Both the position numbers and the translations under genes were made by a program. A stretch of 34,782 bases of DNA, taken from a virus. Below the pieces are notes generated by a model. The model saw only the letters and a list, made by a program, of their open reading frames with translations. It searched no databases and had not been told where the DNA came from. Of the stretch, positions 17,391 through 33,505 are shown in pieces. The DNA lies in IMG/VR virus record IMGVR_UViG_3300026097_000055, positions 1 through 34,782 of that record, one strand, 5' to 3'. Every line of letters begins with the position of its first letter. The first letter of the stretch is position 1.

Positions 17391-18998
17391 TTAGAGAGTT
17401 TCTAGACCTTCTACGCGGATTACCCCGTAAAATTCGTTCCGGGTCATCTCTTTTGCGTAACGCGTCATGATGCCCCGACGTGGTGTGAAGTTAGTCGGAT
17501 CGTATACCGTTGGTGTCATGATGAGTGGGATATATGGAGCGTAAACTGCACCTGACTCCAAGAAGTTATCACCTTTGTATCCTACGAGGATAGTGTTCTC
17601 TGTCATGTATGGGTTTTTGTATACTTGGTAACGCCCTGCAAGTGAACCAACTTGTGTTACACCTGCTGCAAATTGCATTGCGTCTTTTTCAGCTGATACT
17701 GTGAACGCTGGAATTGACTCAAGAATTGTACAAACGTCAGGAGATGCAACTAAGAAGTTAGCACCACCACGAAGTGTCAACTGATGTATCTTGTTAGATA
17801 CTTTGTTGATTTTCGTACCGAGTGTTTGGAACCAAGTGTTACGTTGATAAGCAAGTCCCGCACCATCGTTTCCTCCGATTACGAAAGAACCACTGTTTGC
17901 GTCATACTCATATCCAACACGTGCAGACCAGAAGTCAGTTGTCACTGCGTTTTGAATCAACATATCAAGGATTTCAAGATCTACTTCCATAGAGATGTAG
18001 TCAGAAAGTACTGATGTTAATTCAGCTTCAGCGTCAATTGCGTGGTATGCATTTAAATCTTGTGCAAGTTCAGGAGTCCATTGTGCTTTCAACTTACGTG
18101 TTTTCGCTACAATAGCCTTGGACTGTACATCAAGGTTTACTTCAGGGATGTCGATATCAGAACCGAATGCTCCGACTGCTCCATCCTCAAAGTCACCACG
18201 AGTTGAGTCTGTTGGTTGTCTGTGATATGCTACTTCGAAATCACCTTCGAGAGATGAAGAAGCACCTGCGGCAGCAGATACGAAAAGTACAATATCTGTA
18301 CCAGAAGTAGCGTTGAACGCGTTTAGGTTAGAAACAACTGCTGAACCAGAAGCTTGGAATGCACGTACACCTTCAAGGTCAGGACGTGTAAACTCTGATT
18401 GAGCGATTGTTACTTTTGTGATCTCTCCAGCTGCTTGGGAAGCAGATAGTGTAGTATCAAAGTTCAAATCTGCCATAGAAGCAGATGTGTAAGAAGTTGG
18501 AGCTACACCAGAAGTTACTACATCGTTGATAGAGTAACCGAAACGTCCTGCACCATAAAGACCGTTTTCTGCAACGTCTGTTGGAGCTTCTGTTTCTTGT
18601 GTACCGCTACCACCGTATAGTGATTTTCCGTTGAATGCTGGTTTTGCGTTTTGATTTGTTCCGTATTTGTAATCTAGATAGAATACAAGTCCAGAAGGTA
18701 GGTTCATCGGTTGTACAGAAACGAAGTTCTGTGCAGCGATTTCACCAAATACTCTACGAACAAGTGGAAGAGCTACACCCGCCCATTGTTCAGAGTTTGC
18801 TGTTGTACCAGTACGTGTCGCTTCGTCCAAAAGTTCTTTGGCTTGGTTTTCAAGAAGTTGAGCCATTGTGTGAGTTTGTTGCTCACTACCCATGCCTTCA
18901 AGAAGACCAGTGTTTTCCCACTTGGAAACAAGTTCCTTAGCCTTTTTATTTTGAACAAAACGCTCACTTGCTGATTCTAATAGGTTGTTGATTTCCAT
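17391..18998 (-). CDS. 23: Major capsid protein gp23 (535 aa)
   Basis: The protein fits T4 gp23 in length (521) and layout. An N-terminal scaffold-binding region includes LVSKWENTGLLEGMGS and TMAQLLENQAKELLDEATRT, aligning with the T4 KW..LLEG.G and IFENQEKD segments. It continues with GVALPLVRRVFGEIAAQNFV and QPMNLPSGLVFYLDYKYG, equal to the T4 VRRAIPNLIAFDICGVQPMN region, and ends with TRYAKEMTRNEFYGVIRVEG. A likely gp21 cleavage site is LDE|A after E59. Codon use differs from neighbours, with more C and G at third positions (acgtgtt, aacgtc) as expected of a highly expressed gene. The ATG is preceded by AGGAAAA, and a terminator follows. Confidence 0.93.
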   Translation of the reverse strand: MEINNLLESASERFVQNKKAKELVSKWENTGLLEGMGSEQQTHTMAQLLENQAKELLDEATRTGTTANSEQWAGVALPLVRRVFGEIAAQNFVSVQPMNLPSGLVFYLDYKYGTNQNAKPAFNGKSLYGGSGTQETEAPTDVAENGLYGAGRFGYSINDVVTSGVAPTSYTSASMADLNFDTTLSASQAAGEITKVTIAQSEFTRPDLEGVRAFQASGSAVVSNLNAFNATSGTDIVLFVSAAAGASSSLEGDFEVAYHRQPTDSTRGDFEDGAVGAFGSDIDIPEVNLDVQSKAIVAKTRKLKAQWTPELAQDLNAYHAIDAEAELTSVLSDYISMEVDLEILDMLIQNAVTTDFWSARVGYEYDANSGSFVIGGNDGAGLAYQRNTWFQTLGTKINKVSNKIHQLTLRGGANFLVASPDVCTILESIPAFTVSAEKDAMQFAAGVTQVGSLAGRYQVYKNPYMTENTILVGYKGDNFLESGAVYAPYIPLIMTPTVYDPTNFTPRRGIMTRYAKEMTRNEFYGVIRVEGLETL

Positions 18999-21287: not shown

Positions 21288-21554
21288 TTATTTTCGTTTT
21301 AGTAAGTAAACGTTTCCACCACCTACACCAGTAACTGATTCAGGCCCTAAATCGTGAACAATACCTGCATCTAAATCTTCTATGCTAATTGTTCCACCTG
21401 CTGATAAATTCAAACTACCACTTGCACCTGCACCACGAATAACTGCGGATACTCCGTAGTTAGAACCTGTTAATATAAGATCTCCACTTGAAACAGTAAT
21501 TGTTTCATTAAATTTTCCTTGATGACCTAATTTGTTATATTGTTCAAACGCCAT
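21288..21554 (-). CDS. Small beta-rich structural-type protein (88 aa)
   Basis: The protein begins MAFEQYNKLGHQGKFNETIT and consists of short strands and glycine/serine turns (YGVSAVIRGAGASGSLNLSA), ending with GGGNVYLLKRK. There is no membrane segment. It overlaps the protease stop by eleven bases and precedes the two membrane-anchored proteins. Composition suits a small virion surface or decoration protein, but I do not recognise a family. Confidence 0.6.
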   Translation of the reverse strand: MAFEQYNKLGHQGKFNETITVSSGDLILTGSNYGVSAVIRGAGASGSLNLSAGGTISIEDLDAGIVHDLGPESVTGVGGGNVYLLKRK

Positions 21555-22128
21555 ATTCTTGTCCTAATTCTAAGATGATTTTTCCGATAATATCTTCGGT
21601 CTTACAATAAGTATTACATACTTCCATATTCACACTTTCATTTACAGGTGATAAAAATGCTCCGTGTGTAGATGGATTTGATACAAAGTCAAATGCAATT
21701 AAATTAAAATCTTCTTGAACTTCTAATCCATCTGCTCCATCTTTTACTGAACCCATACCACGTGAAGAAATACCTAAACGAATACCACTTTTGAATAGTT
21801 CACGTAAAATATTTCCTGATGGGGTGGGGAGTATTTCTACTTTTCCAACTACATCATCTCCTTCCCATCCAATCTCTACTACATTGTGAGATACATTCTG
21901 TAAGTTTACAACAGAACTATCAGGGTGGTCTAATTCGCCAAGTGCTCTACGTTCATCAATTAATTGTTGATATTGTTTAACTTCACGTTGTAGAATATCT
22001 CTTGGATATACCCTTCCGTTTTGGTTCTTTGCACCTGCACGTTGAAGAACCCCACTAACAATCAGTTTACCGTCTTGTTCGTTAATCTTAGCTTCAAATA
22101 AGTTTGTTTCTATTAGAAGTTGGCTCAT
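21544..22128 (-). CDS. 21: Prohead maturation protease gp21 (194 aa)
   Basis: The serine protease pattern of T4-like prohead proteases is clear. RAGAKNQNGRVYPRDILQRE precedes LGELDHPDSS (catalytic H68), then VVGKVEILPTPSGNILRELF, GIRLGISSRGMGS (catalytic S121 or S122) and LIAFDFVSNPSTHGAF (D147). It cuts scaffold, capsid and internal proteins after (I/L/F)xE inside the prohead. The start is taken as ATG 22128, which overlaps the stop of the 50-residue gene (ATGA); a TTG two codons earlier has no advantage. Length is a little below T4 gp21 (212). It lies two genes upstream of membrane proteins and five upstream of the scaffold gene. Confidence 0.87.
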   Translation of the reverse strand: MSQLLIETNLFEAKINEQDGKLIVSGVLQRAGAKNQNGRVYPRDILQREVKQYQQLIDERRALGELDHPDSSVVNLQNVSHNVVEIGWEGDDVVGKVEILPTPSGNILRELFKSGIRLGISSRGMGSVKDGADGLEVQEDFNLIAFDFVSNPSTHGAFLSPVNESVNMEVCNTYCKTEDIIGKIILELGQEYGV

Positions 22129-22277
22129 ACCCAAACACCTCTCTTTTTGAATAAATCAAATAATACGTTTGCGATTTCAACACGAATCAATCTTCGTATC
22201 CGTTTCATATCGTTAGAATCAAGTTCTTCGTTGATATAACTCTCCAATAAAGTTTTTATTTGTTTTTCACTCTTCAT
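22125..22277 (-). CDS. Small helical protein coupled to the protease gene (50 aa)
   Basis: ATG 22277 to TGA 22125 encodes 50 residues: MKSEKQIKTLLESYINEELD, then SNDMKRIRRLIRVEIANVLF and DLFKKRGVWV. It starts inside the end of the preceding gene (11 bases) and its stop overlaps the protease ATG as ATGA. It therefore fills an otherwise 130-base gap exactly. The (I/L)RRLIR-EIANVLFDLF(K)KR end is a recurring feature of small phage proteins in such clusters. Function unknown; overlap geometry is the main evidence that it is real. Confidence 0.65.
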   Translation of the reverse strand: MKSEKQIKTLLESYINEELDSNDMKRIRRLIRVEIANVLFDLFKKRGVWV

Positions 22278-25379: not shown

Positions 25380-25638
25380 ATTCTTTTATCTTTATCACAA
25401 GTGGTGTCGTTCCTTTTAGTACTCTATGAAAACGACCCTTCTTTATAAATATCGTTGTATCTTTATTTAGTTTCTGTGGTATTTCTTCATCAAATTGAAA
25501 CGACCAATCACTTTCATTCATCACAACAATTTCTCTGTCGTGTTCATCTTCATGCCATTCAAGTTCATTTTCATCTATGTCAGATTCAAATGTCCGTATA
25601 AATTCATCGTCTGAAATATACTGATTTTTATACAACAT
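25369..25638 (-). CDS. Mini-cupin-like protein (89 aa)
   Basis: The start is ATG 25638, sharing one base with the upstream TAA (TAATG); a longer frame to 25707 would overlap that gene by 70 bases and is not needed. Residues about 26-42 read NELEWHEDEHDREIVVM, matching cupin motif 1 (HxH..E), and FIKKGRFHRVLKGTTPLVIK matches motif 2 (P/K-x-G-x-x-H). The two histidine-containing strands would form a tiny beta-barrel with a metal site. I know similar short proteins beside portal genes of marine T4-like phages, with unknown role. Metal binding is inferred. Confidence 0.6.
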   Translation of the reverse strand: MLYKNQYISDDEFIRTFESDIDENELEWHEDEHDREIVVMNESDWSFQFDEEIPQKLNKDTTIFIKKGRFHRVLKGTTPLVIKIKEYGR

Positions 25639-26198
25639 TACCAAAATCTTCCTTTTGCCCCTTTCAATCCAAGTTGTTTTGCGTACCTTGGGAGAGCACA
25701 ACTCCAATATCCTGCTTTTGTTTTATCCTTTTTTTGGTCACAATTATGTCTTGATGCAAATGCTTTGCGTGCGGCGGGGTCTTTTAACTTGACTGCAAGT
25801 TTACCACCACCACCTTCTGCACCAAATGATACTTTTTTCACATTCTTTGTTTTTGGGTCACGGACATAGACATAAAACTTTTTATCTCCACCTCTTTTGG
25901 GTTTATTAAGTTCTACATCTTTTCCTTTGTATTCAGATTCATCAATTGGCATTGGAAAATCTAACATGACTTTTTTCCCTTCATACCATTCTAACTTTCC
26001 AATATCACTTTTCAAGAAAAATTCTTCGAGTTCATCAATAGGTTTTAGTTGTCCTTTTTCATACAGTGATCGAGCTTCATTGTATAATCTAAAAAACTTA
26101 GTGCTACCAAATCGAAACACATTTTCATCCAATGGAATTTCGTTTTCTAAATGATACTGTAATCCTTCTGTAATCGCTACTTGTTCTGTGAGAATCAT
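25638..26198 (-). CDS. Conserved marine-phage protein with RHNC...W motif (186 aa)
   Basis: The N-terminal half includes FRFGSTKFFRLYNEARSLYE and GKLEWYEGKKVMLDFPMPID. The C-terminal half carries the widespread phage module KKFYVYVRDPKTKNVKKVSF, followed by ARKAFASRHNCDQKKDKTKA and GYWSCALPRYAKQLGL. C and H residues in RHNC...YWSC could bind zinc. I recall this module from cyanophages and pelagiphages near terminase and portal, without a known function. A good AAGGA site and a TATATTTAT motif precede the ATG. It begins the unit with cupin and portal. Confidence 0.65.
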   Translation of the reverse strand: MILTEQVAITEGLQYHLENEIPLDENVFRFGSTKFFRLYNEARSLYEKGQLKPIDELEEFFLKSDIGKLEWYEGKKVMLDFPMPIDESEYKGKDVELNKPKRGGDKKFYVYVRDPKTKNVKKVSFGAEGGGGKLAVKLKDPAARKAFASRHNCDQKKDKTKAGYWSCALPRYAKQLGLKGAKGRFW

Positions 26199-26236: not shown

Positions 26237-27814
26237 TTAATCAAATAACCAACGTAAGTCAATTTCTTCCCCATTTACTGTTTTCTTATAGGGGTCTTCA
26301 CCTCCGTAATTATTTGATGAAATAACGGTATCTGTTCGTCTCATATGATTGAGTGAAGCTTTGGTTAAATCAATTCCTTCTTGTCGTAACCTTAATGCTG
26401 TATCTCTAACCCACAATGCGATTGCGTAACTCATTACCAAGTCATCGTTATACCCTCTCATTGCTTCTGCACGTTGTCCTAACCAAATAAACGTAAATAG
26501 TTCATCAATCAATCGACTATCATAAATTTCTACTGACTTTTCACGTAAGTATTCATCTAATTTAGATATCAACATCGGTCGTGTTTTTGATGATGTTGTA
26601 AATCCTGGTATTGTTGGATTTTCTGGTGATTGTTTTTTATTGATATGTGTGTAGTGAACATCAACAACTTGTAAATCACGTGAAGAATAGAAGATGTTGG
26701 GATAATCCATATCAATAATTTCTTGCAAAACTGCCCATCCAACATTTGCGTTCTCAACTACGATTAGTGCGTTATTGTATTCACGTCCGATCGTATTGAG
26801 TAACCTTCCGTATTCTTTTGTATCTATCTTTCCCTTGTATGAACCTACTTGTTTCATACTCTCCACTTCCATAATATGAAACGCAGAATAATCTTTTCCA
26901 TCGCCACGAGCAACGTCAGCAGTTATTACATAATCTTTGCTGTAATCACAATACTCCCATATCCACAAGTTTCCATCTCTTCCACGTTTTTCTACGGGTT
27001 CTTTGACGAGCGTGTCTTGATACCATTTCAGTATTTGTGAATCGATGACTGTGTGACCGGATGAAATGAAGTCACAGTCGCATTCTTGGGCAGCCATCTT
27101 GGGGCCTAATACTTTATCTTGTTCATCCCTCCAACCTTGATCTCTATCAGGATGTAATGACCAGTGTAAGTTGATTGGGTTAAAGTAATTTTGTCCTTCT
27201 TTTGATCCTACCCACATTTGGTGAAACCAATTACCCATACCATTTGGTGTAGATAACGCAATACATTTACCACCTGTTGCTAATGTTTGTTGTGCTGAAC
27301 CCCATATCTCTTCAATATATTCAATAAATGCAGCTTCATCCAATATTAATAATGATAGAGATTCCGAACGACCTGCATCTGGTGATGATGATATTGCTTT
27401 GATTTCCGAACCATTCCCAAACTTCAATGATAGTTTGTTATCTTCTACTGTGGTGTTTTGTAACCACTTCGGTAAACTTTCATGTGCATATCTTACTTTT
27501 GTCACCAAGTTTTTTGCAACATCTTGTTTTGTTGCAATAACCAAAACTCGTTTATCTTTCTGAAATAACATCATCCATAATGCATATCCCGCAACAAGGG
27601 TTGATATACCCATCTGCCGTGCTTTGAGAATAATGTTGTAATCGTTGTCTGTAAGTTCTTTGAAAGCTAGTTCTTGAAATCTGTATAAATCGAACTTTAC
27701 TCTACCCTTTGTTGGGTGGGAAATATACATATACTTGCGAAAGAAATATACAGGATCAGTCGCACATTTTACATACTCTTTCTGTATGAGTTGTTTGTAA
27801 TCTACTTCCGCCAT
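26237..27814 (-). CDS. 17: Terminase large subunit gp17 (525 aa)
   Basis: The ATPase motifs are visible: adenine-side FDLYRFQELAFKEL, Walker A ARQMGIST (65-72), Walker B LLILDEAAF (155-163) and the LSTPNG coupling motif (187-192). The C-terminal RNase H-like nuclease has VITADVARGDGKDYS (D300), IVVENANVGWAVLQEI and GYNDDLVMSYAIALW as its acidic sites. It cuts and pumps DNA into the prohead through the portal. T4 gp17 has 610 residues, so this is shorter. No small terminase (gp16) is found in the window. The gene follows the membrane-anchored 228-residue gene by one base. Confidence 0.93.
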   Translation of the reverse strand: MAEVDYKQLIQKEYVKCATDPVYFFRKYMYISHPTKGRVKFDLYRFQELAFKELTDNDYNIILKARQMGISTLVAGYALWMMLFQKDKRVLVIATKQDVAKNLVTKVRYAHESLPKWLQNTTVEDNKLSLKFGNGSEIKAISSSPDAGRSESLSLLILDEAAFIEYIEEIWGSAQQTLATGGKCIALSTPNGMGNWFHQMWVGSKEGQNYFNPINLHWSLHPDRDQGWRDEQDKVLGPKMAAQECDCDFISSGHTVIDSQILKWYQDTLVKEPVEKRGRDGNLWIWEYCDYSKDYVITADVARGDGKDYSAFHIMEVESMKQVGSYKGKIDTKEYGRLLNTIGREYNNALIVVENANVGWAVLQEIIDMDYPNIFYSSRDLQVVDVHYTHINKKQSPENPTIPGFTTSSKTRPMLISKLDEYLREKSVEIYDSRLIDELFTFIWLGQRAEAMRGYNDDLVMSYAIALWVRDTALRLRQEGIDLTKASLNHMRRTDTVISSNNYGGEDPYKKTVNGEEIDLRWLFD

Positions 27815-29042: not shown

Positions 29043-29429
29043 TTACGAATTTAATATTCGTTGCCACAACATTGTCATACTACCTACAATAGCTGATAGT
29101 ATAATCCACAAAAATTTTGTAATATTACTTTTAAATTTTTTAAGATCGTTGTGTTCTTCGATAATAGATGCTAATCGTTGTTCTTGTTCTTCTAATTCCA
29201 AACGATATTCAGTGTTTTTGTTTACACGAACAATAACACCATTTTCTGGATTTAGAAGCATTTTTTTGAGGTCAGCCATATCTTCATACATCTTTTCTTG
29301 GCGTTCCATCATTATTTCAAGTTGTGAAAGAATAACTTTTAATTCACCATTTGGCATATGAGTTTCTATTTCATCTAGCCTTTTGGATAACTGATTCAAT
29401 AACTCTTTACTCGTCAGTGAGCTTGCCAT
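29043..29429 (-). CDS. Coiled-coil protein with C-terminal membrane helix (128 aa)
   Basis: Residues 5-60 and 75-100 form coiled coils (LNQLSKRLDEIETHMPNGEL, MMERQEKMYEDMADLKKMLL, ELEEQEQRLASIIEEHNDLK). A membrane helix lies at residues 104-123 (TKFLWIILSAIVGSMTMLWQ). The layout equals the XhlA/DUF-type phage membrane proteins often found in lysis cassettes, though XhlA is shorter. It could be a holin helper or a head-assembly membrane anchor. GAGG stands six bases before the ATG, which lies inside the end of the zinc-ribbon gene. Confidence 0.6.
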   Translation of the reverse strand: MASSLTSKELLNQLSKRLDEIETHMPNGELKVILSQLEIMMERQEKMYEDMADLKKMLLNPENGVIVRVNKNTEYRLELEEQEQRLASIIEEHNDLKKFKSNITKFLWIILSAIVGSMTMLWQRILNS

Positions 29430-29964
29430 ATTTTTCCTCGTATGATTGTATTGAGTTATTTAGTTGTTCTTCGAACGTACCTAAATACTCTTTATAACTA
29501 TCAATTACGTCGGACAAATTTCCGTCAAATTCCCATTTTTCTATCCTTCCATCGGATAAAACATACTCTTGTTTACCATTAAAGTTATTTTTGAACTCAT
29601 CAAGTTGTGTTTTTTGTTCATCTAACCAACTTTGTGCGTTCAATAATCGTTTTTTGAACATAAACTGATCTAACTTCCCTTCTTTTCGTAGTTCATCGTG
29701 GTAATCAATCATACAATTAAGACAAGTTCCGTTGGAATAGAACGCGTCTGTATCACGTCGTGCTTTCATTACCTTTTCACACTTTGGACAGAACATGGGA
29801 ACACGGATATCATCAAACCTTGTTTTCTTTACTTTATACCCATTCTTTTGTTCGTATTCTTCACCAAACTCTTTTTTGGGGCCTGTATATCCAACAGATA
29901 TATTTTTCTCTGCTTCTTGCCCTGAAAGTATTGTTTTCAGAGCTTTAACGTTTTTTTCATTCAT
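29407..29964 (-). CDS. Zinc-ribbon protein of unknown function (185 aa)
   Basis: Cysteines C59, C62, C81 and C84 in VPMFCPKCEKVMKARRD and SNGTCLNCMIDYHDELRK form a four-cysteine zinc ribbon. A basic, disordered N-terminus precedes it, and about 95 residues of coiled coil follow (FKKRLLNAQSWLDEQKTQLD). I know the FCP-C-KVM...F--H--C--C-iD pattern from marine T4-like phages; its function has not been assigned. It overlaps the giant enzyme gene by eight bases and is probably coupled to it. Confidence 0.65.
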   Translation of the reverse strand: MNEKNVKALKTILSGQEAEKNISVGYTGPKKEFGEEYEQKNGYKVKKTRFDDIRVPMFCPKCEKVMKARRDTDAFYSNGTCLNCMIDYHDELRKEGKLDQFMFKKRLLNAQSWLDEQKTQLDEFKNNFNGKQEYVLSDGRIEKWEFDGNLSDVIDSYKEYLGTFEEQLNNSIQSYEEKYGKLTDE

Positions 29965-32900
29965 ATTTAAGTGAACCTAATAACTGATTAATTGGTGCAA
30001 ATAGACCTGTGAGTTTGTACGTCTTTCCTTTATATTGAAAGACAATACCTTCTGTTGGTACAAGTTTATCTAACCCACCTGCTGATTGTATTCTTTTGAG
30101 TTGTGTTTCTAATTGTTTGATTTTTGTAACATCATTTGTCTGCCGTAATTGTTTAACAGTATCTAATACATCTTTCCGTAACTTTTGTACTGCATCTTGT
30201 GGATTTGCAGTCAATAAGTCCGATACATTTTGTAATATCTCCGCACCAAGTTCCAAGAATAGTGACTCAAATGGTCTCATATTTTCTTTTACTTGGTTTG
30301 CATGATTTTGTTTATCATACTTTGTTACCCAATCCAAAAACTTTTCATCTCTTACATCTTTCTTTAAGTTACGAATTGCGTATGACTTATCAAAAAATGC
30401 CCATCGTTTCACCAATCCAATCAGTACATGATTAGGTATGGGGTATTTGTATTTCTTTGCATTCTGTCTAATAAACTTCTCCCACCACATTTGATGATAC
30501 ATTGAAACTTCATCATTATCTTTAAGACGAAACTCACTTTGTAATCGTTTCAATCTTCCAAAATACTTTTGTTTTGATTTAGAAAAATCCTTACTTTGTG
30601 GTAACTTTACAATCGGTGGGCCTTGTATCTTATATGTGTTTTGAACATCTTGGTTGACTTGTTTTATCATACCTGAAAGTATTCTTCCACTTTCTTTATC
30701 TTCACCAATAGGAGAACCTGTTTCATCGTATTCCATACTTCCGTGAAATACAAGTAGATTCAATCCGTATGGAATAACATTTTGAGTTGCGGGGTAAATG
30801 ACTTCCAATGCCATAAACTTCGTTCCATTTCCGAAGATTTTTTCAGTTTGTTTGTCCGATAATTTAGAGATTGCTTTATCTAAATCATCAATAGCAAATG
30901 AGAATGCTTTTTCTAACTCACCACGACCCTTAAACATTTGTTTTACACCATTAACATCAAGTGCGTTTATACCACTATCTTTGAGGTGTCCTTTGTTTCT
31001 TGCAGCAATCAACCCTCTATCATCTCTATAACTAATGGATAATGCTTGCCCATCCGTTTTTTCTGTTACTCCACTTTCAATATCAAGTTTTCCTTGCAAT
31101 CCAAGTTCAATCATCCGTTTGATATCACTGAACGTCAAGTCCATATCTTCAAATGGATGATTAAGATGTCCATATGCTCCGCCGCATAGAAGTAATATTC
31201 TACTATCTAATGGGTCGTTGGAGTTTTGGATATCTGTGATTAACTCATTTAATGTTAATGATGATTTTGTTCCCTTACTTTCATTCAATCTTCCATCAAG
31301 TATTTGCAAGTTCTTGTAATGTGATACAACTTCAACTGGTATGTTATTTTCAAATCCTGCCTTTATACTATATTTGTGGTCAAGATGAAAATCTCTACTT
31401 CGTTTTTTAGCATTATCTATTTCATTGAAAAACTTTTGGTAGTTTTCATTAGTTTTATTTCTAACATTTTCAGTATATAGCTGAAATGGGTGTTTTTCTT
31501 CTGGTTTAAGATATCCTCTGGTTTTTGCAATGGTTGCTTGAGTTTTTTTATTACCAAATCCATACTTTTTTCCATTCTCACGTCTACTTTCTAACAAGTC
31601 AGGATTATTACTATAAGATTTTTTTACACCACTACTTATTTTTTTACGAAAATCTTTATTTTTATTTTTTTCAACAACATCAGGTCTTTTATTTCCTTTA
31701 TTTTTACCCACCATTACTTCACTTATTTTTTTCTTGTATTCAGTTGTATTTACTGATTTTAAGTGATTTTTCTTAACATCATCATTTTTCATAGGATTTT
31801 TATCACCTATGTTTTTTGCATTTTCACAAACTAATGGTGCGGTAGGATATTTATTTTTATATTCATCAATTGTCATTTGATGTTTATACTTCAAGTGTCT
31901 ATATTGCACTTGTTTCAATTTTTCTCCACATTCACGACATATTACAAAATCTAATCCTTCAGTGATATTTTGATACTCTACTTTATCAAACTCTTTTGTA
32001 ACATCAATAAGGTTGTCAATGGATAACCCAACTTGTAACACATCAATATCTGACGAACTGTCAGTATTGAAAAGAGCGTTTGCTCTATGATGTCCGTCTA
32101 AAATGTAATAATCTTTGGAGATTATCACAGGTTTTGTCTTTATCTTTTCAGGATCATCAATAAACTTTTGAATATGTGAACGATTTAGTTGTGTCTGTGT
32201 GTTTTTGAGTTCTGACACTTTTACAGACAATGGAAATACAGATATCTCCTTATCTCGTAAGAAATCAATATAATCATCCATGTCTTTCCGACGAATTTGT
32301 GGCATATCTTCTCGTTGAATACCTTTGGAAAGTGGAAGAGTTTTGATGGTATCAATAATCACTTTACCATCTTCAACTTCTACGGTTTGATAATCAGGTG
32401 TTAGATTACGATAGTAGTTTTTTAGATACTCCGTTCTATCATAACTTTCGTTTATTTCACCTTCAATATCTTTTGCATCATCACCACTATCTTTTCGTTG
32501 CTCTTTTTCATCTCCTTTATCCATCACCCATTCCCAGCCAAGTAATTCAACAGATCGTAATATGTGTTTCTTCCATTTATCGTATGCATCTGCACTATAA
32601 ATATCTTGTTGGTTGTTTGGTGTGGTTACACCCAAATCACCTGCTGGGAAATAACTAACACTATCAACTGGCCCATTAGGGTATTCAGGATAGTTCAGTT
32701 TTTGCTCTAACTCATCATCTAATAGATACTTAACTATGTTCCACCCTGTTTCAAGAAAGTTCGTTAGACGTGATTTTTGAAGGCTTTTATGTGCTTCAAA
32801 GTTCTTTAACATAAACCCTGGCCCGTCATCAGGCCCTACATTACTTGTTGAACCTTCAAATAACTTCCCACCTTTTTCAATAACCCAATCTAATACAACA

Positions 32901-33505
32901 CTTTCTGTTAATCGATCCGTTATCAAATCAAATATTTTGTTATCTAACTTTCCGTAGATTTTTTTGAAGTTAAGTTGTTTAACATCTGTTGATAAAGATG
33001 GATCACCAAGTTTTTGGCGAACTTCAGTTCCTGATACTGATCCTGCCATTGGTGGTGCGATATAAATGTATCCTTTATCTTTATACCCCAATAAGTCCTT
33101 TGATTTATCGTATTTATCAAAGTAGTTTCCACCCAAACGAGATGCGTCTTTTTGTCCGACAACTGTAATGAATACAGTATCTTCATCAAACTTTTTTAAG
33201 ATTTCTGTTGGAGCGTATGGATTTTTGATTTGAACGATTTTATTCTTTGGAACACGAAACATCTTTGTCATCACTTCAACTTTTTCTTTAAAGTTTAGTG
33301 GTGACTTTGGTTTATCTACTTTGTTGGACGTTCCAATGAAAACATTATCTTTACCAAATGTTTTTACGAGGTGCTGATATACACCATAATGACCTGGATG
33401 GAATGGTTGAAACCGTCCTGAATAAACAACAACTTTTTTTGTGTTGTCTGTTGCTTCTAATATCTGTTTAGCAACATCTTTACCAAGTTCTTTGGGGTCT
33501 ATCAT
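29957..33505 (-). CDS. Multidomain enzyme: NMN-adenylyltransferase-like, ParB-like, HNH and ligase-like DUF6267 domains (1182 aa)
   Basis: Domain 1 (about 23-200) has YSGRFQPFHPGHYGVYQHL (HxGH at 36-39) and SVSGTEVRQKL (158-163), the signatures of NadM/NMNAT-type nucleotidyltransferases. Residues 202-350 are a conserved-looking spacer with GPDDGPGF and TPNNQQDIYSADAYDKW. Domain 3 (about 354-510) is ParB/sulfiredoxin-like with PVIISKDYYILDGHHR (GHHR 471-474). Domain 4 (517-742) is an HNH endonuclease module. Domain 5 (743-1182) fits DUF6267 and shows covalent ligase-type motifs: EKTDGQ (K816-x-D-G), FMALEVIYP (897-905), TEGIVF (1151-1156), YKLTG (K1164). The motifs suggest AMP transfer, so the protein may act in NAD or nucleic-acid end metabolism. 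Short (I/L)xE[A/S/G] sites mark most joints. It overlaps the fibre gene by four bases (ATGA). Confidence 0.7.
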   Translation of the reverse strand: MIDPKELGKDVAKQILEATDNTKKVVVYSGRFQPFHPGHYGVYQHLVKTFGKDNVFIGTSNKVDKPKSPLNFKEKVEVMTKMFRVPKNKIVQIKNPYAPTEILKKFDEDTVFITVVGQKDASRLGGNYFDKYDKSKDLLGYKDKGYIYIAPPMAGSVSGTEVRQKLGDPSLSTDVKQLNFKKIYGKLDNKIFDLITDRLTESVVLDWVIEKGGKLFEGSTSNVGPDDGPGFMLKNFEAHKSLQKSRLTNFLETGWNIVKYLLDDELEQKLNYPEYPNGPVDSVSYFPAGDLGVTTPNNQQDIYSADAYDKWKKHILRSVELLGWEWVMDKGDEKEQRKDSGDDAKDIEGEINESYDRTEYLKNYYRNLTPDYQTVEVEDGKVIIDTIKTLPLSKGIQREDMPQIRRKDMDDYIDFLRDKEISVFPLSVKVSELKNTQTQLNRSHIQKFIDDPEKIKTKPVIISKDYYILDGHHRANALFNTDSSSDIDVLQVGLSIDNLIDVTKEFDKVEYQNITEGLDFVICRECGEKLKQVQYRHLKYKHQMTIDEYKNKYPTAPLVCENAKNIGDKNPMKNDDVKKNHLKSVNTTEYKKKISEVMVGKNKGNKRPDVVEKNKNKDFRKKISSGVKKSYSNNPDLLESRRENGKKYGFGNKKTQATIAKTRGYLKPEEKHPFQLYTENVRNKTNENYQKFFNEIDNAKKRSRDFHLDHKYSIKAGFENNIPVEVVSHYKNLQILDGRLNESKGTKSSLTLNELITDIQNSNDPLDSRILLLCGGAYGHLNHPFEDMDLTFSDIKRMIELGLQGKLDIESGVTEKTDGQALSISYRDDRGLIAARNKGHLKDSGINALDVNGVKQMFKGRGELEKAFSFAIDDLDKAISKLSDKQTEKIFGNGTKFMALEVIYPATQNVIPYGLNLLVFHGSMEYDETGSPIGEDKESGRILSGMIKQVNQDVQNTYKIQGPPIVKLPQSKDFSKSKQKYFGRLKRLQSEFRLKDNDEVSMYHQMWWEKFIRQNAKKYKYPIPNHVLIGLVKRWAFFDKSYAIRNLKKDVRDEKFLDWVTKYDKQNHANQVKENMRPFESLFLELGAEILQNVSDLLTANPQDAVQKLRKDVLDTVKQLRQTNDVTKIKQLETQLKRIQSAGGLDKLVPTEGIVFQYKGKTYKLTGLFAPINQLLGSLKYE
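31280..31957 (-). mobile_element. In-frame HNH homing-type endonuclease module
   Basis: Residues 517-742 of the giant protein. ICRECGEKLKQVQYRHLKYK holds a C2H2 finger (C523, C526, H537, H542), followed by the MTIDEYKNKYPTAP segment of MucR-like fingers. Two NUMOD3-type DNA-binding stretches (GDKNPMKNDDVKKNHLKS and FRKKISSGVKKSYSNNP) follow. The HNH core is FHLDHKYSIKAGFENNIPVE and VVSHYKNLQIL (H707, H710, N732). The DNA is visibly more AT-rich than both sides, with long T runs on the plus strand and lysine/asparagine-rich product. No intein splice blocks and no frame break are seen, so it appears to be translated as part of the host protein. Confidence 0.65.

Follow-up and report, generated by a model that had tools for sequence, protein, structure and literature searches.

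The 1182-residue protein P0001, encoded on the minus strand at positions 29957-33505 of the window (the whole 34,782-nucleotide viral record IMGVR_UViG_3300026097_000055), comes from a T4-like marine myovirus and probably gives rise to several enzymes that are packed into the head and ejected together; we read it as a T4-type polyvalent protein, presumably cut by the prohead protease. It joins several domains of disparate activity in one polypeptide and, being a string of enzymes with head-protease-type cut sites, would therefore probably be packaged, cut and delivered to the next bacterium.

The frame is single, uninterrupted and ATG-initiated, as the first-pass annotation had claimed, with stops throughout the plus strand across 29957-33505 and a coding-type composition (GC of 0.47, 0.29 and 0.23 at the three codon positions). 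It overlaps both neighbours by a few bases, the upstream gene ending with its stop at 33502 and the downstream one, a zinc-ribbon gene (29407-29964, minus strand) whose synteny is kept in most loci, starting with its ATG at 29964. The setting is that of late and virion genes, with the large terminase subunit (TerL; 26237-27814, minus strand; phrog_2, E 3e-51), a portal gene, a gp21-type prohead (head maturation) protease that we propose as the processing enzyme (21544-22134, minus strand; phrog_207, E 1.4e-55) and the major capsid protein (MCP; 17391-18998, minus strand; phrog_138, E 1e-79) adjacent. TerL lies downstream of the C-terminal core in 38 of the 39 relatives' loci with enough flanking sequence. 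T4 gp21 cuts after L/I-X-E (PMC9026906); the MCP of the window carries LLDE|A at residue 59, the position where T4 gp23 carries LTE|A, and the genome of P0001 has both a gp21-type protease and an L-x-E|A site in its MCP. A PADLOC search returned no matches.

Relatives of P0001 are encoded by 57 viral contigs, while among 84,980 species genomes of bacteria and archaea that were scanned, only five MAG contigs encode the family; it looks viral. Conservation among the relatives is limited to the two ends, an NMN-adenylyltransferase (NMNAT) type and a ligase type, which occur together in most full-length members. The N-terminal domain (residues 20-200; 32906-33448, minus strand) is a nucleotidyltransferase of the HIGH superfamily, and its HxGH motif (GRFQPFHPGH, residues 30-39) and SGTxxR motif are those proposed in the first-pass annotation, with H39 and S158-G159-T160/R163 invariant across the aligned relatives. 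It matches Pfam CTP_transf_like (PF01467, E 1.4e-7), and its best NCBIfam matches are NMN adenylyltransferases, under the cut-offs of those models. In an AF2 model of full-length P0001, built from the full-length alignment A4, the two ends are mostly at pLDDT 70-90, and the middle (residues ~201-780) is mostly below 50 and was left uninterpreted; with this model, Foldseek groups the N-terminal domain with NMNAT/NaMNAT (prob 1.0). VIA-align gives Z of about 10-11 to PPAT and NMNAT alike, and the substrate is therefore not fixed by the fold alone.

The C-terminal core (residues 775-1182; 29960-31183, minus strand) is of the RNA-ligase type, with K816 as the predicted catalytic lysine. The covalent nucleotidyltransferase series that had been read in this region, KxDG (I), LE (III), EG(I/V)xF (IV) and KxTG (V), holds across the family: E815-K816-x-D818-G819, R836-N837-K838, E901, E1152-G1153, K1164 and T1166-G1167 do not vary among 22 to 26 relatives. 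These include phages of jumbo size, one an uncultured phage of 462 kb, and a Microcystis phage isolate (no publication on Microcystis phage Mel-JY01 was found). In Foldseek the domain has weak matches to an archaeal RNA ligase, T4 RNA ligase 2 (Rnl2) and ASFV ligase (E 0.04-0.07), and six of the 22 C-terminal cores reach Pfam RNA_ligase below threshold (best E 0.008). Motifs and AF2/Foldseek comparison thus support the enzyme classes assigned to both ends, structure prediction placing the N-terminal one firmly and the C-terminal one weakly. The assignment of the C-terminus to DUF6267 (PF19782) had to be abandoned, as P0001 has no Pfam match to it at E<=1 and hhalign of its core against real DUF6267 proteins, with only two DUF6267 rows, gives a probability of 0.1%. 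DUF6267 forms a family of its own; two other polyproteins, L152 and L153, carry it at the C-terminus and served as positive controls for the Pfam search (E about 1e-96).

The first-pass annotation mentioned neither the variability of the middle, nor its module at residues 517-774, nor the cleavage motifs at the joints. P0001 begins with a putative capsid-targeting leader, MIDPKELGKDVAKQILE|A (residues 1-17; 33455-33505, minus strand), which ends in an [LI]xE site and recurs nearly identically (17 residues) on other modules, at the head of a polyprotein that has no NMNAT domain (L145). After the NMNAT-type domain, a linker (32855-32905, minus strand) carries RLTE|S (201) and KLFE|G (217), where relatives have IKE|A and similar. 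It is followed by the conserved DDGP module (residues 218-353; 32447-32854, minus strand), about 18-38% identical to its counterparts in relatives and ending INE|S. Next comes a module of the ParB/sulfiredoxin type (residues 354-516; 31958-32446, minus strand) with the motif ILDGHHR and the end NITE|G. For this module the earlier reading stands as to the motif (DGHHR is present), while the match to Pfam ParBc_2 falls short of the cut-off (E 0.0098). Homologous modules occur in other phages: four polyproteins contain one (L032, L062, L068 and L145), and phages of Aeromonas, Stenotrophomonas and Salmonella encode it as a gene of its own; clear homologues there lack annotation.

The last middle module (residues 517-774; 31184-31957, minus strand) combines a MucR zinc finger (ROS_MUCR, PF05443, E 2.6e-8) with NUMOD-like repeats and an HNH motif, the latter two recognised by eye; it matches the unnamed PHROGs phrog_5104/23051, and ends LLLC without a site. 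It is 71% identical to the corresponding module of L001 and related to a free-standing gp19.1-type gene beside gp19 in T4-like phages, annotated as hypothetical. An intein or intron around this module was considered and rejected: Rfam has no match in the window, inspection by eye showed no intein splicing motifs, and the start of the module directly follows the NITE| joint. An in-frame homing-endonuclease insertion is the preferred reading, as judged from these sequence features.

The lengths of the relatives, 637 to 1708 aa, vary with the set of modules that makes up their middle. The shortest (637-638 aa; L018, L026 and L031) have a short linker in its place, and the longest (L041, 1708 aa) has a middle of about 1000 aa or more. 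Modules found there, some recognised by eye, are ParB types, MucR-HNH, HD, zincin-like, zinc ribbon, Zeta-like kinase, DUF5661, minimal nucleotidyltransferase, cupin and C45/Ntn hydrolase. Their order changes too, being ParB-NMNAT-DDGP-C core in a 484-kb phage and NMNAT-DDGP-RelD-ParB-C core in L068, a member without N-terminal leader. The two cores are separate genes in L039, and the C core stands alone in L034, L054 and L063. Modules are also encoded singly, behind LxE leaders of their own, as in the split pair of L039, the C cores of L034, L054 and L063, and genes of HTVC008M.

The joints between modules follow a simple pattern. Near automatically found alignment-block boundaries of 24 non-redundant relatives, [LI]xE is the most enriched motif (1.89x, against 1.00x for the control [VMF]xE). 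Upstream contexts were compared for six module types with sharp starts: of 65 distinct ones, 61 have [LIVM]xE abutting the module start, as opposed to 1.4% at 60 neighbouring offsets. A context counted as distinct when no more than 6 of its 12 upstream residues matched, and the contexts retain some dependence on one another; tandem sites account for a secondary peak at -5. P0001 has joint sites at 17, 201, 217, 353 and 516, and none at 774. Its total of 11 [LI]xE motifs is no excess over shuffled sequence (10.7), and it is therefore the placement of the sites, not their number, that is informative: the NMNAT, DDGP and ParB modules contain none internally, the C core one and the HNH module five. 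At the C-core joint, P0001, L001, L003, L011, L068 and L078 have LLL[MC]|GG instead of xxE|GG. In P0001 the joint preceding the ligase domain reads LLLC|GG, and the HNH and ligase-like parts may stay joined because no site is present. T4 internal proteins have a leader of 10-19 residues that is removed by gp21 (PMC9026906), and 14 of 15 family N-termini have an [LI]xE with its E at position 6-20; since about 30% of other genes do as well, an N-terminal LxE is weak when taken alone.

One joint can be checked against function, that of the C45/Ntn-type hydrolase module found in relatives. Ntn hydrolases of the NAAA, acid ceramidase, PcAAT, bile salt hydrolase (BSH) and penicillin V acylase (PVA) type require their catalytic Cys to be N-terminal. 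The phage module matches NCBIfam C45 with E 3.5e-10, under that model's cut-off, and its structural model (pLDDT 79) aligns with NAAA, acid ceramidase, PcAAT, BSH and PVA at Z 16-20, residue 1 falling on their catalytic N-terminal Cys (126, 143, 103, 2 and 1, respectively). In eight of eight distinct contexts, [LIVM]xE ends exactly before this Cys. The same holds for two separate C45 genes, L094, which reads MKMPKNILNE|C, and that of the isolated Chryseobacterium phage MA9V-1, MTSANNNEFLNE|C, which lay outside the set from which the rule was derived. The phage module shares fold and N-terminal Cys with NAAA, acid ceramidase, PcAAT and bile salt hydrolase, but these have a long pro-region, whereas it is preceded by a leader of 10-12 aa or by another module ending in [LIVM]xE.

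We suggest the following course of events. P0001 would be made late, together with the head genes, as its synteny indicates, and the N-terminal leader, by its likeness to those of T4 internal proteins, would bring it into the prohead core. The gp21-type protease would then cut after [LIV]-x-E at the joints, where the sites are present, giving NMNAT, DDGP, ParB and an HNH plus ligase-like piece, and these fragments would enter the host with the DNA. There, judging from the enzyme families, the NMNAT would probably make NAD from NMN and ATP, the C-terminal enzyme would probably self-adenylylate at K816 and seal or modify nucleic-acid ends, and the exchangeable middle modules may counter host- or strain-specific defences. 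A tentative extension, which we regard as possible but somewhat short of even likelihood, is that the head protease acts as an activation switch for stored effector enzymes, freed by cutting in the maturing head. The C45/Ntn hydrolase would be silent in the producing cell because its catalytic Cys is blocked behind [LIVM]xE, and enzymes freed inside the maturing head would therefore be active only in the next host.

Cleavage by the prohead protease has to be weighed against other ways of releasing the modules, and against no release at all. C45 enzymes can be autoproteolytic, and their Cys could therefore be freed without gp21; autoproteolysis is the main alternative for this module. More generally, the Ntn-type and other modules might be freed by autoproteolysis or by a zincin-like module such as the one with HELIHAKQ in L001, zincin processing having been proposed for polyvalent proteins (PMC5512222). 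However, modules that have no protease fold, and members that lack a zincin, follow the L/I-x-E rule as well, and the phage C45 module matches its profile from position 100 only, the 10-12 aa leader replacing the earlier part, which makes this route quite improbable. A chain packaged and ejected uncut, in the manner of the N4 virion RNA polymerase, which is packaged unprocessed (PMC5512222), would take the Glu-ending joints for a linker preference, and would suit the missing joint site of P0001. Such a chain is at odds with the exact position of Glu at -1 and of L/I/V/M at -3 across unrelated upstream sequences, and with the need of the Ntn module for a free N-terminal Cys; we consider it unlikely.

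An uncut chain could also be a large multidomain enzyme in which NMNAT, ParB and ligase act jointly on adenylylated intermediates, in end repair, NAD capping or NAD rebuilding, as the first-pass annotation had proposed. The two cores do stay together in most members, both intact by motif, and a pairing of NMNAT-like and DUF6267 proteins occurs elsewhere, fused (L152/L153) or as adjacent genes (Syn1). Yet the middle is exchangeable and often absent, ParB itself being missing in many relatives such as the 637-aa L018, L026 and L031; in L039, L034, L054-L056 and L063 the cores are found apart or alone; and the joints carry protease-type sites. The claim of a joint system is accordingly not borne out and we give it little credence: the survey of domain order keeps the NMNAT and ligase pair, ParB and the rest of the middle are, by their distribution in sequence, exchangeable cargo, and, since their joints resemble protease cut sites, the parts probably come apart. 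Compatible with the packaged and cut precursor, which we continue to prefer, is that P0001 is partly altered, the HNH module being a recent in-frame homing-endonuclease invader that disturbed the C-core joint. The low GC of the module (0.28, with GC3 of 0.17 against about 0.25 elsewhere) fits a recent arrival, and in both of the only two members that have it here, the C-core site is missing. LLLM|GG is, however, also found without an HNH module (L003, L011 and L068), and all catalytic motifs are intact; we consider this reading possible but less likely than not.

The family resembles several known systems. T4 IPI-IPIII and Alt (PMC9026906) likewise combine a short leader ending in L/I-X-E, an encoded prohead protease and a variable repertoire, but the T4 cargo consists of single genes, whereas in the P0001 family one frame strings many modules together, most joints carrying a site. 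With the polyvalent proteins of Iyer et al. 2017 (PMC5512222) it shares many unrelated enzymatic domains in one late chain, domain shuffling, ParB and zincin-like domains, and predicted injection with the DNA; it differs in its prohead-protease joints, its occurrence in T4-like myoviruses and its fixed NMNAT plus ligase-type frame. In that study, processing was proposed to be by zincin-like peptidases, and T4-type ARTs were placed outside genuine polyvalent proteins. The DUF6267 polyproteins of pelagiphages and cyanophages also pair a KxDG-type protein with an NMNAT-like domain and share middle modules (L152/L153), but their sequences show no recognisable kinship with the C core of P0001. In a limited literature search, covering few subscription journals, we found no description of polyproteins with prohead-protease joints in T4-like phages.

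NMNAT-like proteins have been detected by mass spectrometry in virions of the T4-like cyanophages S-SCSM1 and S-CREM2, and a cytidylyltransferase in those of S-SZBM1, with S-CBWM1 cited alongside (PMC9602691, PMC10665884, PMC9146016); the authors considered carry-over of the NMNAT possible. These proteins share the NMNAT-type domain with P0001 but are separate genes (about 290-410 aa where length is known), and the accessible portions of the reports do not discuss leaders or protease sites. The S-SCSM1 protein starts MKSFLQFLKE|A, i.e., with an LKE|A leader, and neighbouring genes are likewise labelled virion proteins. Our reading suggests that the NMNATs in virions belong to an arsenal for ejection and are not contaminants. 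If our reading is right, one gene is an exchangeable cassette of anti-defence or takeover enzymes, and looking next to TerL for genes with [LIVM]xE joints is a simple rule to find packaged effector enzymes in T4-like marine phages, where such proteins mostly carry hypothetical or metabolic annotations; the way in which a single T4-like head is filled with many different proteins would also become testable.

Further architectures were observed in other phages. L152:778-4734 and L153:734-3730 encode parallel polyproteins with a CTP_transf-like N-terminus, a RelD-type module and a true DUF6267 C-terminus, and one stretch resembles a HAD phosphatase by eye. In cyanophage Syn1 a DUF6267 gene adjoins a cytidyltransferase gene, and no [LI]xE leader was found on either of these standalone genes. 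A Zeta-toxin-like kinase module is fused ahead of the NMNAT in L006:3624-7271 and in L085, and a similar kinase is a separate gene in HTVC008M, with the leader MIPFILKE|G. The member encoded by L001:4917-9869, 1651 aa long, contains zincin-like, HD and MucR-HNH modules, and its LLLC|GG joint is that of P0001. A hydrophobic module (VIAGVLGVATGGLSHGILPFAQHLAVEFVPHIV...) lies inside the polyproteins of L041:2219-7342 and L179, and is possibly membrane-active. The protein of about 907 aa encoded by L192:1-2625 (Flavobacterium phage immuto), annotated as NadR, lies upstream of TerL and has LxE joints; it seems to combine an NMNAT-like domain with zincin-like motifs in a further architecture of the same kind.

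Two other genes of the window, both on the minus strand, show related features. A further short late gene (25638-26198) is rich in LxE, and its C-terminal module (KFYVYVRDP...RHNCD...YWSC) is found again in L077, where it follows LNE|A and closes a longer polyprotein. The gene at 917-2584 encodes a 555-aa protein without PHROG match that starts MNLYRQFITSLFLTE|E, a leader resembling those of the family, and by this resemblance is possibly another packaged protein.
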